This document shows positions 7,139 to 19,622 of a DNA stretch of 64,000 bases, piece by piece. A program made the position numbers and the translations under genes. Under the pieces are notes generated by a model. It searched no databases and was not told the origin of the DNA. It worked only from the letters and a program-made list of their open reading frames with translations. This DNA is from a virus. The stretch's first letter is position 1. Every line of letters begins with the position of its first letter. The stretch spans positions 1 to 64,000 of IMG/VR virus record IMGVR_UViG_3300030116_004830. One strand, given 5' to 3'.

Positions 7139-7520
7139 AGGAGTAATTTATTCATTAGCATATCCTGAAATAGAAATCACAAAAGATGATAGACAATCAA
7201 TTGGATATAGAATAAGATTAAGAATTAATTTTAGAGCAAAGAATAATTTGTTCCTTCTTAAATTACAAAGAACCCTAGAGGACAAGGGAATACAGTCCTA
7301 TTACAAAGCAAAGGAGAAAGAAGGTAGGCCCTATCCCTTGCTTCGATTAACGAATGTAGATAATCTGATTAAGTTTTTCAGATTAATAGATTTACATGAG
7401 CCTACATCAAATAATAGATTCAATTCCTTTGAAGAAGTATTGACGCTTGTTTCCAATAAGCATCACTTGAAACAAAAAGGTTTTGAGCGCATATTGGAAA
7501 TAAAGGGGTTATTAACTTGA
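7116..7520 (+). CDS. Hypothetical protein, LAGLIDADG-fold-like, 134 aa
   Basis: The order of secondary-structure elements (LEGVIYSLAYPEIEI, then GYRIRLRINFRAKNN, a helix LKLQRTLEDKG, YPLLRLTNVDNLIKFF) resembles one repeat of a LAGLIDADG endonuclease fold. However, the first motif lacks the catalytic acidic residue, so any relative would be inactive and used only for DNA binding. It sits directly before the clamp-loader genes. The fold suggestion is weak; the gene itself is well supported by overlap and codon continuity. Confidence 0.45.
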   Translation: MFTQGQLEGVIYSLAYPEIEITKDDRQSIGYRIRLRINFRAKNNLFLLKLQRTLEDKGIQSYYKAKEKEGRPYPLLRLTNVDNLIKFFRLIDLHEPTSNNRFNSFEEVLTLVSNKHHLKQKGFERILEIKGLLT

Positions 7521-8368
7521 GTTTAATGGATATGAGTAAAAAGGAAAGACCAATATTAATTACAGGAAAAAGCGGAACGGGAAAAACTACAATTGCTAAA
7601 TCAATGTCTAGAGAAGATTCTCTTATCTTCTATGCTAATGAGATAGAGGATAGAGATTGGAAGAGTGTAACTACAGATGTTATTATCGAAGAGGTTCACT
7701 ACAAACCTAATAAAGAAGTAATAATGAATGTAATTAGGAATTGTAAGAATCAAATTGTGCTTACATCAAACGATGAAAAAAGTATTCCATCGGAAATTAA
7801 GAACTGTTGTAGGGTTAAGAGAGCAGGTAGTGTCTGCCATAATCTAGATACTATCAAACAATTGGCTCCTAGAAGTAGTGAGCCTCACAATATAGAGATG
7901 AGTGTGTTTGAATTAGTAAGTGATTATCTAAAGAATACCAATCGTTCTCAAGTTCTTGAGAACCTTAAACACAACAGACCTGCCGATACTCAGATTATGA
8001 CTTGGCTAGGATTGAACATTCATCCTAACAAGTTAGTGTTCGTTGATGGAAGAGTGAAGAGAAGATGGTCAAGTGACTATTTTTACGAGTTATTGACGTA
8101 TTCCCATGATGGAAAGATGTATTCAAAAGTCACCTTTCCAAAGAGAGGTAACTATTCCAAAGTCCCTAATATCCTTAGAAAACTAAAGATAAAACCGAAT
8201 CAAGGTTATCTTCTGCCTCAATTATTACAAGATTCGGAATTTGAAAAATGGGCAACAAAGAGATTGAAAAGTGAAGAAACTAGAATTGTTGGTATTAAGG
8301 ATAAGAAGAGAGCGAGAAATGCTCCTATTATTCCTGATAGGACACTAAGATTAGAAGGATGGTTTTAG
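7517..8368 (+). CDS. RFC large-subunit-like clamp-loader ATPase
   Basis: The 283-residue protein has a Walker A motif GKSGTGKT (residues 17-24, Lys23), a Walker B-like IIEEV near 55-60, and a sensor-1-like segment LTSNDEKSIPSEIKNCC that recalls RFC large subunits. The C-terminus ends in LRLEGWF, close to a PCNA-interacting (PIP) motif, which archaeal RFC large subunits also carry at the C-terminus. It lies one small gene upstream of the RFC small subunit. It is therefore probably a shortened RFC large partner that helps load PCNA. An unrelated viral AAA+ ATPase is the alternative. Confidence 0.6.
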   Translation: MSLMDMSKKERPILITGKSGTGKTTIAKSMSREDSLIFYANEIEDRDWKSVTTDVIIEEVHYKPNKEVIMNVIRNCKNQIVLTSNDEKSIPSEIKNCCRVKRAGSVCHNLDTIKQLAPRSSEPHNIEMSVFELVSDYLKNTNRSQVLENLKHNRPADTQIMTWLGLNIHPNKLVFVDGRVKRRWSSDYFYELLTYSHDGKMYSKVTFPKRGNYSKVPNILRKLKIKPNQGYLLPQLLQDSEFEKWATKRLKSEETRIVGIKDKKRARNAPIIPDRTLRLEGWF

Positions 8369-12067: not shown

Positions 12068-12844
12068 ATGCAAATTCAAGTAAACAAACAAGATATAATT
12101 GAGGCCATGAAAAATGTAGAACTCAAAGGAAAATGGGCGACAACGAGTGGACTATCTTCAAAATCTTTAGGTAAATATATTCAATTTCAATTAAGAGATA
12201 ATCAATTATTGTTAATCAATTCAGATGAATCGACTACTGCAATAAAGGCTATTCCTGTAGAAACAGAAGATACTGGTTCCTTTGTTTTAGATATTGAAAT
12301 GATGAAAAAGTATCTTACTAAAATGAATGATGATATTCTATTTGAAGTTGGAGATACCATAGTAATGAAGTCAGATGGTAAGAGGGCTACTATGCCTATA
12401 GTAGTTGAACATCCTTTTCATGGTAGAATCGAAAGGTTTGTGGCTCAATGGCCAATAGCCTTTGAAGAAGATTTAACGAGAATACCTACAATTGGTAGTA
12501 TCGAGTTTAACTGTGGTATTCAATTAACCGCAGATGAACTTCATAGTGCCATTGATGCTTGTGAAATAGTAAACAATGGTATCTATAAATTAGATTTTAG
12601 AGAGGCTGATGAAGTTAGTCGGCCTAAATTTATTATATCCTCTGAACAAACAATTTCCTCTTATAGGGAAGAAGTTTCTTTTTCTAATGTTATCGGAGAA
12701 GGAGCAACGGTATTGTTTAGTGGTCCTATGCACAAGTTCTTTGGAAAGAAAGATATTGTGAATATTTTCATTGGGGATGACCAACCCATTGTAATGATAA
12801 CAGAAAATAGCGCTTTGGTTCGTGCGCCAAGAATGGGTGTTTAA
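12068..12844 (+). CDS. pcn: Sliding clamp (PCNA)
   Basis: The start at 12068 is favoured by AAGGTGAT just upstream, giving 258 residues, close to archaeal PCNA (about 245-250). Features are the N-terminal strand-helix QIQVNKQDIIEAMKNVE, a central interdomain region, and a C-terminal half with PMHKFFGKKDIVNIFIG, QPIVMITEN and the family ending RAPRMGV (compare APR-[IM] at the end of PCNA). Sequence similarity to cellular clamps is low in the middle. PCNA trimers tether polymerase, ligase and nucleases to DNA; several proteins here carry likely clamp-binding motifs. It lies immediately upstream of the polymerase. Confidence 0.8.
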   Translation: MQIQVNKQDIIEAMKNVELKGKWATTSGLSSKSLGKYIQFQLRDNQLLLINSDESTTAIKAIPVETEDTGSFVLDIEMMKKYLTKMNDDILFEVGDTIVMKSDGKRATMPIVVEHPFHGRIERFVAQWPIAFEEDLTRIPTIGSIEFNCGIQLTADELHSAIDACEIVNNGIYKLDFREADEVSRPKFIISSEQTISSYREEVSFSNVIGEGATVLFSGPMHKFFGKKDIVNIFIGDDQPIVMITENSALVRAPRMGV

Positions 12845-12845
12845 G

Positions 12846-14513
12846 ATGATAATTAGTTTTGTAGATTCAGATAAGACCATCAAGATTAGATGGAGAGATG
12901 AGAATAGAGAAAGAATGGAGAAATCAATTGAAGGCTTTAACCCTTATTTCTTTATTCGTTCTACAGATAAAAGACCTGAAACATACAAAACATCTCATAA
13001 GATTATAGGTGGTAAATCAGTTAAACAAACTGGATTCTATGAATACCAAACTGGTGATTACAAAAACCTACAAGGTCAATCTTTGACTAAGGTTTACTAT
13101 TCTAATCCTAAAGATAAATACAATGCAGTAAAACCATTTGTCGCTACATGGGAAGGAGATGTTCCTATCTGTCGTAGATATTGCGTAGATGAATTGGAGA
13201 ACGTCCCTGAATATGAGATGAGAAAATGGTATTGGGATATGGAATGGTTGCCTAAAGGCCACGAACATGAAGACGCTATTACTTGTATAGCAGTATATGA
13301 TAATTATACTAGTAAGAGTAAGTTATACACATGGTTTCCTGAACCCGAATTAGGAGAAAATAACGTCAAGTTTTCAGGATATTCGATTTACGATTCCGAA
13401 AAAGAAATGCTTGAATCATTCGTTAATGATTTACAAGAACAAGACCCTGATATGTTGATTGCTTGGTGGGGATTAAAATCAGACGTTCCACAATTGATTA
13501 AGAGAATGTTTGCTAACAAGATAGACCCAAGAAAGTTATCACCACATAAGGAAGTAAAGAATGTAGGATTCAATGCTTTAGGTAGTGTTGAGTATTCTAA
13601 CATTGAACAACCGATTCGTGGTAGGCTATGTTTGAATCTTGATTTGGCTTTTGAGAGGCAATGGATGGATGCTCAAAGAGGAACGCTACCAAGCAACTCA
13701 TTGGATTATTGTGCAAGTGTATCTGTTGGGGAAACTAAGAAGAAAGAATCTAAGTTTACTGATAGGAACGAATTTTTTAATCGAGCATGGTTAGAGGATA
13801 CTCAAAATTATCTTGAGTATTGTCTTCAAGATGCAGAGTTACTACATAAGATAGATGAAGAAATGGGATTGAGTGAAGGTGTATTGGCGGTTCAAAAAAT
13901 TGTGAAAGCACCGTTTGAAGATTGTTTCTTTGTTACCATGATTGCGGCCCCTTATTTCATGAGGAACGCCACATGGAAAGCCCCTACTGGAAAGAAAGGC
14001 GCTAAAGAGAAATACGATGGAGCAATGATTTACAATCCATTAGAAGAAGAAACAAATGGTTTACATCTAGGAGTTGCGGCTTTTGATTTTAGTTCGCTAT
14101 ATCCATCAGTTGCAGTAGCAAGAAATATCTCTTGGGAAACCAAATCCAATGAACCAACAGAGTTTGCAGTTAACATTAGAACACCTAGAAACCTAGGTGA
14201 AACTACTACTGAGGATTGGAGATATTACAAAACAGATGAACTCGGTCTACTACCAAAAATGATTCTAACTCTAAAGCCTCTTAGAAAACAATACAAGAGT
14301 AACATGTTAGAAGCATTACAAAATGGAAACAAGAAAGAATATGTTAAGTGGAACTCTATGCAAATGGCCACTAAAAGGTTACTAGCATCTCTATATGGAG
14401 CAACTGCCGCAGTAGGTTTTGGATGGTATGATTTAGATTTAGCCGCTAGTATTACTGCTAGTGCTAGAGAAGCAATTAGAGAAGCCGCATTTAAGGTGAG
14501 GGAATTAGAATGA
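12846..14513 (+). CDS. polB: DNA polymerase B, N-terminal part (exonuclease, palm motifs A and B)
   Basis: The 555-residue protein holds the proofreading exonuclease and the first half of the polymerase domain. Exo I is WDMEW (Asp131, Glu133), exo II lies in LIAWWGLKSD, exo III is YCLQD (Tyr325, Asp329). Polymerase motif A is DFSSLYPS (414-421); motif B is KRLLASLYG (510-518) with Ala for the usual Asn. The protein stops about 37 residues after motif B; motif C is in a separate gene at 14940. It begins one base after the PCNA stop. The two parts must associate to make an active enzyme. Confidence 0.93.
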   Translation: MIISFVDSDKTIKIRWRDENRERMEKSIEGFNPYFFIRSTDKRPETYKTSHKIIGGKSVKQTGFYEYQTGDYKNLQGQSLTKVYYSNPKDKYNAVKPFVATWEGDVPICRRYCVDELENVPEYEMRKWYWDMEWLPKGHEHEDAITCIAVYDNYTSKSKLYTWFPEPELGENNVKFSGYSIYDSEKEMLESFVNDLQEQDPDMLIAWWGLKSDVPQLIKRMFANKIDPRKLSPHKEVKNVGFNALGSVEYSNIEQPIRGRLCLNLDLAFERQWMDAQRGTLPSNSLDYCASVSVGETKKKESKFTDRNEFFNRAWLEDTQNYLEYCLQDAELLHKIDEEMGLSEGVLAVQKIVKAPFEDCFFVTMIAAPYFMRNATWKAPTGKKGAKEKYDGAMIYNPLEEETNGLHLGVAAFDFSSLYPSVAVARNISWETKSNEPTEFAVNIRTPRNLGETTTEDWRYYKTDELGLLPKMILTLKPLRKQYKSNMLEALQNGNKKEYVKWNSMQMATKRLLASLYGATAAVGFGWYDLDLAASITASAREAIREAAFKVRELE

Positions 14514-14827
14514 GATTAAATGATTATCAAGGATTAGCAAGAAAAACTGCCTTATACCCAATGGAGGAAGGTTTGACTTATACTGCATTAGGATTATGCG
14601 GAGAAGCAGGTGAAGTTGCTGAGAAAATTAAGAAGTTCATTAGAGGAGATGAAGGAGTTTCTGTTAGAGAAGATTTACTACTAGAATTAGGAGATGTTCT
14701 ATGGTATCTTTCTAATTTGGCTTTTGAATGTGGCTATACTCTACAAGCAGTAGCAGAGGCTAACATCGAAAAACTAGACAATAGAAAGAAAAATAATACT
14801 ATCAAAGGCAGTGGTGATAAAAGATGA
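14510..14827 (+). CDS. MazG-like NTP pyrophosphohydrolase
   Basis: The 105-residue protein matches the all-alpha MazG-like family: CGEAGEVAEKIKKFI followed by ELGDVLWYLSNLA supply the E-x-x-E and E-x-x-D metal-binding motifs. These enzymes hydrolyse nucleoside triphosphates to monophosphates and often occur in phages, where they alter nucleotide pools or alarmones. Unusually, it sits between the two halves of the DNA polymerase, overlapping the stop of the first half (ATGA). It may clean the dNTP pool, or be a passenger of the event that split the polymerase. Confidence 0.85.
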   Translation: MRLNDYQGLARKTALYPMEEGLTYTALGLCGEAGEVAEKIKKFIRGDEGVSVREDLLLELGDVLWYLSNLAFECGYTLQAVAEANIEKLDNRKKNNTIKGSGDKR

Positions 14828-14949
14828 ATAGAATGTTCAAATGTAAACATTGCAATAAAATTGGTATGTCTGAACATTACATGAGATGTGTCCATTGTTA
14901 TGCTACAATGTCTAAGGATGAACTAAAGGAGTTGATAAAATGCAAATAG
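14824..14949 (+). CDS. Zinc-ribbon miniprotein, 41 aa
   Basis: This short gene begins with an ATGA overlap after the MazG-like gene and ends inside the polymerase C-terminal gene. The product has two cysteine pairs, FKCKHCNKIG and MRCVHCYATM, typical of a zinc ribbon. It is conserved in layout as part of the insert that separates the polymerase halves. It could bridge the polymerase fragments or bind DNA; this is speculative. Confidence 0.6.
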   Translation: MNRMFKCKHCNKIGMSEHYMRCVHCYATMSKDELKELIKCK

Positions 14950-15869
14950 TTTACGCACATACAGATTCACTATATGTTCCCGTTCCCTCTATAGAGAAGG
15001 CACTAGAAGTTAGAGAGGTATTGAATGACCACATTCAAGAAAATGTATTTCCTAATATTATGGGTTTAGAAAATCATCCTATGGATTTAGAGTTTGAAAA
15101 ATATTATTCGGTCTTAGGAGTAGGAGCCACAAAGAATAGAAATGCAGGTTTTATCTCTTGGAAAGATGGAGTGCATTTACACGAACCTGAGTTTTTCGCT
15201 ACAGGGTTTTCATTGAAGAGAATTGCTGAATCTAAGATTGCAAAGGATACTCAGAAAGAAGTCATAGAGATGTGGGTTAAACAGAAAACGGAAGATGAGA
15301 TAACAGAAAGAGTCAGAAGTATTTTTACAGATGTCCTAGAAGGCAGAGTTGAGAAATTAGACCTTGTTAAAAGAAGTAGATATAAGGACGAAAGAAAATA
15401 TCTAAAATGCAGATGTAAAAGAAAATACGATGTAGAATACGTTAGAAAGTTACTTCGTATAGTTCCTGATGCGTTATGTGAAAACGATAATTGTAACGCT
15501 AGGCTATCGGAACTTACTACATTAGAAGGTAAAAGACCTTCCTTTGGTGGAGGGTTCGCAGGAGTATTGTATTACAATGAACATGTAAAACCTCAAGATA
15601 AAATTGATGATTCCTTTTATCATATGAAATGTAAATTCAATGGTATGGTTCAACCAAATACCTTTACTAACATAAAAGGTGAATCTAAATCTGCGGGTTA
15701 TATTGCAGTAAAGAACTTAAATGAACTAGAAAATTACGAACCCGACTGGCCCTCGTTAGCCGAATCGGAAGTTCTCAAAAAAGCCAAGCCCATTTACGAT
15801 GCAATGGGTTGGGATATTAACGAAGTAAGAAAAGACAAAAAACAAAAAGAATTGGATGAGTGGTTTTAA
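14940..15869 (+). CDS. polB: DNA polymerase B, C-terminal part (motif C, thumb, PIP box)
   Basis: The 309-residue protein starts almost directly with motif C, VYAHTDSLYV; family members normally have YxDTDS, so the first Asp is His here while the second (Asp9) is kept. The rest forms the palm end and thumb, with a cysteine cluster (KCRCKRKYD and LCENDNC). The C-terminus QKELDEWF is a good PCNA-interacting box, as in cellular archaeal PolB. GGAG precedes the ATG. With the gene at 12846 it would reconstitute a polymerase of about 864 residues. Confidence 0.9.
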   Translation: MQIVYAHTDSLYVPVPSIEKALEVREVLNDHIQENVFPNIMGLENHPMDLEFEKYYSVLGVGATKNRNAGFISWKDGVHLHEPEFFATGFSLKRIAESKIAKDTQKEVIEMWVKQKTEDEITERVRSIFTDVLEGRVEKLDLVKRSRYKDERKYLKCRCKRKYDVEYVRKLLRIVPDALCENDNCNARLSELTTLEGKRPSFGGGFAGVLYYNEHVKPQDKIDDSFYHMKCKFNGMVQPNTFTNIKGESKSAGYIAVKNLNELENYEPDWPSLAESEVLKKAKPIYDAMGWDINEVRKDKKQKELDEWF

Positions 15870-17579: not shown

Positions 17580-17738
17580 ATGAGTTGGCTTAAAGAGAAA
17601 AACAAAAGAAGTTACGAGGAAGCCCAATATAGACGGGCTATTTACAGAGAAATAATATCAGCCGAATATTTCTTTCTAAAGGACTATATGTTTACCTTTG
17701 AATTAAAAGACGGCAAACTAATAAGGGTGAAAGAATGA
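17580..17738 (+). CDS. Small basic hypothetical protein, 52 aa
   Basis: GAGG lies 8 nt before the ATG and the TGA overlaps the primase start (ATGA), which supports real translation. The product begins MSWLKEKNKRSYEEAQYRRA and ends FELKDGKLIRVKE. It is not recognised. Translational coupling to the primase gene is the only context clue. Confidence 0.5.
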   Translation: MSWLKEKNKRSYEEAQYRRAIYREIISAEYFFLKDYMFTFELKDGKLIRVKE

Positions 17739-18841
17739 AGTTTCCTAGAGAAGTATGGCCAAGTGCTAACAAACAAACTAATACTTTTGCTAGTAAGAGA
17801 AAGTTGGTTCATAGTAAAGAAGAGTTCGACTCTTGGGTTAAGACCCATAATGGAAAAATGAACTGTTATACATCAGTATATGATTATGCTCAATACACCC
17901 ATAAACAAGCAGTAACGGACACCGTTATTCTTGATAGAGTGTTTCTAGATTTTGACGCTCATCATGGTGAAGTAGATAGCAGGACTGGGGCGCAAACAAT
18001 TAGTGAAGCACAGATTCAATTATGTTTAGATGATTTGCTAGATGTTTCAGTTTATTTAGAAGAGAAGGACTATTGCTATGATATTTCATTTTCAGGGAGA
18101 GGATTTCATGTATATGTGTATGGTAATATTATTCCTGTAAATCAGATTCGCAGGTTGACCGCATTCTTTAATGAAATGAAAGAGTTAACCTCTAATGGAA
18201 CTTTAGATAGTTCAGCGATTTCACCTAGAAGATTGAGGCGTATTCGTAATACTATGAACCTGAAAGCGTCTTATGGTGACGGTTGTTACTATTCAATACC
18301 ACTATCAATAGACGACATCAGAAACAAAACTGTTAGTCAGATTTTAGAATTAGCAAAAAGACCCGAAGGGGTATCCATTAGATATGGTTCTACATTAGTT
18401 AATTGGCCACAAGTTCCTGAAATTAAAGAATCAGAGATTGAAGCAGAAGTTATCAATGCAGGTAACTTACCTCTTCCACCATGCATGTATAGTGCTATTA
18501 TGGTTGAGAATCCAACTGATGAAGCAAGAGCATATCTTGTTAGTTGGTATAAGGACCTATTACTATGGTCAGATTTCAATGTAGGTTTTACAGAAACACA
18601 AGTTACTCCAAACATGTCCACTAGATTGAATATCATAAATCAGATTACGGCTGAGATAAAACACTTACATGAAACACATAATGTATGGTTAGATTTTGAT
18701 GAAGCCATAACAAAATACAGAGTTGGTTTTGTAGTTAATGGAAACTATAATTTCCCTAATTGTGATAAACTGATTGCTAATGGATACTGTATCGGAACAT
18801 GTTGGAGATTAAAGGATTACACAAAGGAGATGAAAGAATGA
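17735..18841 (+). CDS. Archaeo-eukaryotic primase, PriS-like with PriL-type Fe-S domain
   Basis: The 368-residue protein has the catalytic PriS motifs: FLDFD (Asp72, Asp74), SGRGFH (120-125) and a basic RRLRRIR block. The C-terminal part has four cysteines, Cys250 in LPPCMYS and Cys343, 352, 356 in PNCDKLIANGYCIGTCW, the arrangement of the PriL Fe-S domain that helps start primers. Cellular archaea keep PriS and PriL as separate subunits; here both functions appear in one short chain. It would make primers for the split PolB. The tandem PIP-box peptide gene overlaps its stop. Confidence 0.85.
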   Translation: MKFPREVWPSANKQTNTFASKRKLVHSKEEFDSWVKTHNGKMNCYTSVYDYAQYTHKQAVTDTVILDRVFLDFDAHHGEVDSRTGAQTISEAQIQLCLDDLLDVSVYLEEKDYCYDISFSGRGFHVYVYGNIIPVNQIRRLTAFFNEMKELTSNGTLDSSAISPRRLRRIRNTMNLKASYGDGCYYSIPLSIDDIRNKTVSQILELAKRPEGVSIRYGSTLVNWPQVPEIKESEIEAEVINAGNLPLPPCMYSAIMVENPTDEARAYLVSWYKDLLLWSDFNVGFTETQVTPNMSTRLNIINQITAEIKHLHETHNVWLDFDEAITKYRVGFVVNGNYNFPNCDKLIANGYCIGTCWRLKDYTKEMKE

Positions 18842-18924
18842 GACAAACTACGTTATTTGAATTTGGATTAAGAATAGAAGGACAAACTACACTAGAAGAT
18901 TTTGGGTTAGTATTTGAGGAATAA
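18838..18924 (+). CDS. Tandem PIP-box peptide, 28 aa
   Basis: A 28-residue gene overlaps the primase stop (ATGA) with GGAG 8 nt upstream, and the XPF-like gene starts 2 nt after it. The product contains two near-identical PCNA-interacting boxes, RQTTLFEFGL and GQTTLEDFGL, 13 residues apart, and little else. The consensus is Q-x-x-[LIM]-x-x-aromatic pair; here the second aromatic is Gly, so binding may be altered. A peptide that is essentially two PIP boxes could bridge two clamp subunits, compete with host PCNA clients, or act in trans for the adjacent nuclease. Confidence 0.65.
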   Translation: MRQTTLFEFGLRIEGQTTLEDFGLVFEE

Positions 18925-18926
18925 AT

Positions 18927-19622
18927 ATGAAGTTAATTATTGATAGCAGAGAAACTTCGGGTCTTACCAATGAAGTAGAAATTAAAGCCGCTAAACTCAA
19001 TTTAGTTACCGAGAAGAAGTGGCTAGAGGTAGGAGATTATGTCTTTGGAGATGTATGCTTTGAAGCAAAATCTACACATGATTTTCTATCGTCTGTTATC
19101 AGTAAGAGATTATGGACCCAATTAGATAACATGGATAGATGCTACAAAACGAATGTAGTAATTATCTATGGTTCTTTGAGAGATGCATTAAGTTATACTA
19201 GTTATTCTGCTAAGTATAACAATATGCCTAGACAAAGAAAAATGCAATTACTTACTAACAAATTCTATGGAGCAATAGGTAGAATCATTCTTGATTCTGA
19301 TATTAAACCTATATGGGTAATAGACGAATATGCGGCGGCATCTATTATTTGTAGCGTTGCTAAGATGCAACCAATTGAAAGGTCGCCAATTAAACCCCAT
19401 CTGTTTAAGAGATTTACAACAGATGATATTAGATTAAACATGTTAGCATCAATTAAAGGTGTTAGCGAAAAGAAAGCAAAATTATTGCTAGAAAAGTTCG
19501 GTTCTCTTATGGAGATAGGAGATTGCGATAAAAGAGAATTATGTTCTCTAGATGGTATTGGAGATACTACTGCTGATAGGATACTATCAGCCTTTAACTC
19601 AGACAAGGAGGTTAGACAATGA
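18927..19622 (+). CDS. XPF/ERCC4-type structure-specific nuclease
   Basis: The 231-residue protein opens with LIIDSRE and the ERCC4 catalytic region GDYVFGDVCFEAKSTHD (Gly36, Asp37, Glu46, Lys48, Asp52); the usual ERK triad reads EAK. A helix-hairpin-helix pair follows (MLASIKGVSEKKAKLLLEKF and LCSLDGIGDTTADRILSAF). This is the size and order of the short archaeal XPF, which cuts branched DNA and depends on PCNA. No PIP box is present in the protein itself; the tandem PIP peptide is encoded just upstream. A role in resolving replication or recombination branches is likely. Confidence 0.88.
   Translation: MKLIIDSRETSGLTNEVEIKAAKLNLVTEKKWLEVGDYVFGDVCFEAKSTHDFLSSVISKRLWTQLDNMDRCYKTNVVIIYGSLRDALSYTSYSAKYNNMPRQRKMQLLTNKFYGAIGRIILDSDIKPIWVIDEYAAASIICSVAKMQPIERSPIKPHLFKRFTTDDIRLNMLASIKGVSEKKAKLLLEKFGSLMEIGDCDKRELCSLDGIGDTTADRILSAFNSDKEVRQ

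Follow-up and report, generated by a model that had tools for sequence, protein, structure and literature searches.

The 64,000-nt stretch of viral DNA analysed here (the window) contains a micro-gene whose 28-aa product, MRQTTLFEFGLRIEGQTTLEDFGLVFEE, consists of two PCNA-interacting (PIP) boxes joined by a short linker. Its sequence suggests a ligand by which the virus would capture or regulate a sliding clamp during infection. As the best explanation, to which we give an even chance of being correct, we propose that the product would be a free-standing bivalent ligand that occupies the PIP pocket on a PCNA-type clamp, competing with clamp clients, most likely on host PCNA.

The micro-gene (18838..18924, + strand) begins with ATG at 18838 and ends with a TAA whose last base is 18924. 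Its start codon overlaps the TGA of a gene for a primase-like protein (17735..18841, +, 368 aa; PHROG primase match, E 1.4e-10) in the sequence ATGA. A Shine-Dalgarno-like GGAG motif (18826..18829, +) lies 8 nt upstream of the ATG, and 2 nt separate the stop codon from the ATG at 18927 of a gene for an XPF/ERCC4-like nuclease (18927..19622, +, 231 aa; Pfam ERCC4, 1.7e-14, plus HHH domains). This placement had been described in the initial sequence-only reading and was confirmed in the sequence throughout. Translation also bore out its description of two PIP-consensus boxes with almost nothing else in 28 aa: QTTLFEF at residues 3-9 (18844..18864, +) and QTTLEDF at residues 16-22 (18883..18903, +). 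Since the glutamines of the two boxes are exactly 13 residues apart, the peptide resembles a 13-residue repeat (QTTLFEFGLRIEG / QTTLEDFGLVFEE). The product is probably unstructured. It matched no family in PHROG and no phage record, and in the PDB only an unrelated protein was matched, marginally (E 0.1).

Simulations with an order-2 Markov model of the window (60 simulations) predicted 0.07 small ORFs with two boxes per 64 kb under a loose definition and 0.0 under a strict one; one was observed. Together with the selection pattern described below, these simulations rule out a chance ORF. The start frame of the micro-gene relative to the primase takes all three possible values among relatives, and therefore a fusion with the primase by frameshift or readthrough is ruled out as well. 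We conclude that the 18838-18924 ORF is a genuine gene and that all details described for it are correct.

A micro-gene in the same slot, with both boxes kept, was found in 13 further viral contigs. The sequence-only reading had named a lack of conservation of the frame or of the Q-L-F positions as an outcome that would refute it; the frame and the Q-L-F/Y positions of both boxes are conserved in relatives and under selection. The Q-to-Q spacing in this slot is 13 aa in every copy, and the QxxhxxF/Y core is present in both boxes of all copies. Box 1 has invariant Q, T, L and E and a conserved F/Y, and box 2 an invariant Q and L with conserved D/E and F/Y. When a strict DNA pattern of two boxes spaced by 13 residues was applied to 2.9 million viral contigs irrespective of context, it matched 13 contigs, all of them in the primase/XPF slot. 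The same pattern yielded 0 matches in 84,980 cellular genomes, where a relaxed pattern yielded 2, neither resembling a PIP micro-gene. Homologues of the neighbouring genes also retrieved contigs with the micro-gene between primase and XPF. The relatives examined likewise have GGAG or GGAGG shortly before the ATG, in some of them within CWR codons at the end of the primase.

Selection was assessed in eight distinct genes that had been retrieved through neighbour homology alone, excluding L096/L098 and L099, which were found by DNA pattern. The pN/pS ratio was 0.06 at the core positions of both boxes vs 0.84 elsewhere, with core positions (those of the PIP consensus and, in addition, the conserved T and E/D) picked after viewing the alignment. 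Of 500 random sets of nine positions, not one reached a pN as low as that of the box core. On ten genes, with the pattern-found ones included, pN/pS was 0.41. The micro-gene is also kept in L081 (L001 contig), although two extra small genes separate it from XPF there. It is absent from the L009-L012 sublineage of this group. The slot in these genomes is filled by a hydrophobic micro-ORF about 90-120 nt upstream of XPF (MMKEIKLAISLLVIRLIIWWDSLVAKIRRE in L009).

The residue that follows the core departs from the canonical motif. A set of 23 sequences, in which L142/L156 represent a repeat family that is probably unrelated, has G at position 8 in 16 of the box-1 and 17 of the box-2 sequences and F, Y or W in none; the second aromatic of Qxxhxxaa is absent from the micro-gene boxes of this set. 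Because G usually replaces this aromatic, the affinity for a clamp may be low.

Looser patterns and a profile search revealed bivalent PIP micro-ORFs outside the primase/XPF slot (slot A) in related, magrovirus-like genomes. Slot B lies directly after PolB (L104-L110, L112-L114, L136, L153), with spacings of 13 or 19; slot C lies before a lipoprotein gene and distant from the replication genes (L111, L128-L132, L139, L158), with a spacing of 14, or 13 in L111; slot D lies between RFC-S and SSB (L134), with a spacing of 10. Over all slots the spacings are 10, 13, 14 and 19 residues, and 34 contigs besides the window carry a bivalent micro-gene, some of which may be near-copies. The slots may hold one gene that moved or genes that arose convergently. 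The sequences show that both boxes are selectively kept and that bivalency persists even where the linker, the flanks and the place in the genome differ.

Scanned piece by piece, 10 of 23 longer records contained the micro-gene and 13 did not, a proportion that is no estimate of frequency because the records were partly selected for carrying a bivalent gene. In a tree of 22 genomes, with the slot-B pair as outgroup (an assumed rooting) and L009-L012 outside the tree, all 13 genomes without the micro-gene form one clade (support 100/99). Since absence in this tree is confined to one clade, the micro-gene looks ancestral, with a single loss among the tree genomes as the parsimonious course under the assumed rooting. 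Somewhat short of an even chance, in our estimate, is the broader proposal of an ancestral magrovirus-like family of stand-alone, two-headed PIP microproteins that capture host PCNA and stay bivalent across linker lengths and at least four genomic positions.

PIP-like boxes were also observed in other arrangements. In L111 (5767-6243), two PIP boxes are in frame with a lipoprotein carrying a lipobox, the two being separate genes in L128-L132; the frame contains one unknown base, and the join is either a fusion or an assembly error. A 172-aa protein with three tandem N-terminal PIP-like boxes is encoded in L138 (1024-1542), an otherwise unidentified viral contig, and matched no Pfam family. Proteins of 73-78 aa that end in a PIP-like box occur in L228 (8381-8617), L230 (26-247) and L239 (2436-2672), which belong to the clade without the bivalent gene.

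The gene set of split PolB, RFC-S, PCNA, primase and ERCC4-type nuclease matches that of published magroviruses, order Magrovirales (PMC10768690, PMC10160649), as judged from published gene content. By this analogy the virus would be related to viruses of marine Poseidoniales, with the host assignment taken from the magrovirus literature (PMC10768690, PMC10160649). PolB of the window is split into parts at 12822-14513 and 14940-15869, with a MazG-like gene (14510-14827) between them (Pfam); a split of PolB into NTD and CTD is already known from Aoguangviridae (PMC10768690). One related contig, G023 (the contig of L023, 184,733 bp), contains two clamp and two AAA genes at about twice the usual genome length and is possibly two genomes joined in assembly.

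A candidate target is encoded by the window itself. The 258-aa product of 12068..12844 (+), read as PCNA-like from sequence, matched neither Pfam nor PHROG, and its AlphaFold2 model (mean pLDDT 89.6) supports that reading: archaeal PCNAs were the top Foldseek matches, with Haloferax volcanii 3IFV at E 3.5e-14. In the model, a long segment with a helix at residues 118-127 connects two domains, which we take to be the region of the PCNA interdomain connecting loop. Across 14 aligned viral clamps a C-terminal A-P is invariant, presumably as part of the canonical PCNA glutamine pocket. Clamps outside the window's own clade share only 23-34% identity with the window clamp. In slot-B genomes, proteins encoded upstream of PolB had only clamps as their best structural matches, which are indicative only because the model has a mean pLDDT of 53.5. 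These slot-B clamps were not retrieved with the window clamp as query and are without the A-P end. The C-terminal fragment of the window's PolB ends in a PIP box of its own, QKELDEWF (15843..15866, +), and this Q..L..W[FW] motif is kept in most related genomes. Within the same genomes, the micro-gene boxes have F/Y followed mostly by G, vs W followed by F/W in PolB.

From established knowledge of the motif, the micro-peptide would bind the PIP pocket and compete there with PIP-bearing clients of the clamp; client eviction, as the sequence-only reading had suggested, is viable. With a second box, occupancy may rise through renewed binding at one pocket or through the joining of two clamps; the two boxes need not be bound simultaneously. 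Its small size and the few conserved residues outside the boxes suggest that the peptide acts alone. Occupation of host PCNA, the most likely step, would displace clients of host replication and repair, and the virus could meanwhile replicate using the clamp, clamp loader and PolB that it encodes itself. As the target, host PCNA is slightly preferred to the viral clamp. This weak preference follows from the closeness of the boxes to the archaeal consensus while the viral clamps diverge, and from the difference in type between the micro-gene boxes and the viral PolB box. Against our explanation, one clade and the L009-L012 sublineage live without the micro-gene.

Less probable, though still to be taken seriously, is that the peptide regulates the viral clamp, competing with PolB and other viral clients on viral PCNA and thereby timing polymerase release or client exchange. 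The micro-genes in slots A, B and D sit among replication genes, and viral PCNA keeps the invariant C-terminal A-P, part of the canonical glutamine pocket. Slot C, however, is away from replication genes, and slot-B boxes are canonical although the clamps of these genomes are highly diverged and lack the A-P end.

It appears improbable that the micro-peptide donates a PIP box in trans, its remaining residues attaching to a PIP-less neighbouring enzyme and tethering it to the clamp. In favour of such a donor, PolB in slot B ends in KAYGWW or EEEIK without a PIP and the micro-gene is directly next; PolB tethering would fit this slot only. Little conserved sequence outside the boxes is available to hold a partner. 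The sequence-only reading had proposed the neighbouring nuclease as the partner. It was right that this enzyme has no PIP box of its own (C-terminus FNSDKEVRQ), but no XPF in the examined genomes has one, with or without the micro-gene, and the micro-gene occurs in other slots and, in L081, apart from XPF; a tether for XPF is therefore disfavoured. An AAA-type protein encoded beside RFC could be a further partner: it carries a C-terminal Q-PIP in 11 of the 13 micro-gene-less genomes and in none of the genomes with both this gene and the micro-gene. This contrast amounts to a single event in the tree, and both the micro-gene and the AAA PIP are missing from the L009 lineage, so that compensation by the AAA PIP was rejected as a general rule.

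The window also encodes RFC-S and, near it, an AAA-type P-loop protein (7517-8368) without a confident family assignment, which may be an analogue of the large subunit of clamp loaders. The Walker A motif of the AAA-type protein is degraded in the genomes of slots C and D.

Still more doubtful is a role in cross-linking, in which the boxes would join one clamp ring or monomer to another and so sequester clamps. In its favour, bivalency survives changes of spacing and flanks, but spacings from 10 to 19 argue against a precise geometry. The PIP pockets of one clamp ring are about 5-6 nm apart, and the 3-7 residues between the boxes at spacings of 10-14 seem too short for this distance. The suggestion that the peptide bridges two subunits of one ring is therefore disfavoured, leaving separate rings or monomers for this reading. 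That the ORF is untranslated, or has a function unrelated to clamps, is scarcely credible given the selection pattern, the ribosome-binding motif and the recurrence of the gene.

If our proposal of a bivalent ligand competing for the PIP pocket is correct, archaeal virus biology would gain a minimal clamp ligand encoded by a gene of its own, together with a directly testable handle on how clamps are divided between the host and an uncultured virus. As a natural bivalent PIP peptide, the product is also a ready reagent for measuring the value of a second box.

Archaeal clamp clients with PIP boxes include PolB, PolD, RFC-L, FEN1 and RNase HII (PMC4929162). Their boxes share the Q-x-x-L-x-x-F/Y core with the micro-gene, whose boxes are close to the consensus peptide KTTQSTLDSFFK (PMC4929162). 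The archaeal boxes are tails of enzymes, whereas the micro-gene product is a whole protein of two boxes and a short linker, and the second aromatic of the canonical motif is usually G in the micro-gene. TIP, the Thermococcales inhibitor of PCNA, an archaeal protein which blocks the stimulation of PolB and Fen1 in vitro, is small as well and has a PIP proposed at its N-terminus (PMC4929162). However, TIP is host-encoded and has 64 aa, a single putative PIP and a PH-like part, in contrast to 28 aa and two PIPs in the viral product, which has nothing beyond the boxes and lacks the PH-like C-terminal half. In the literature searched, which mostly excludes subscription journals, no tandem-PIP protein encoded by a virus was described. 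Human Lig1 also has two PIPs in one chain (PMC9767926), but in multi-PIP proteins such as Lig1 the motifs lie within a large enzyme, unlike in the micro-gene. Gp168 of phage Twort is likewise virus-encoded and targets the sliding clamp of its host (PMC11139829); the target of the micro-peptide is a prediction. Compared by description, Gp168 sits in the channel through which DNA passes in the bacterial beta clamp and not in the client pocket (PMC11139829), whereas the micro-gene boxes are predicted to point to the client pocket.
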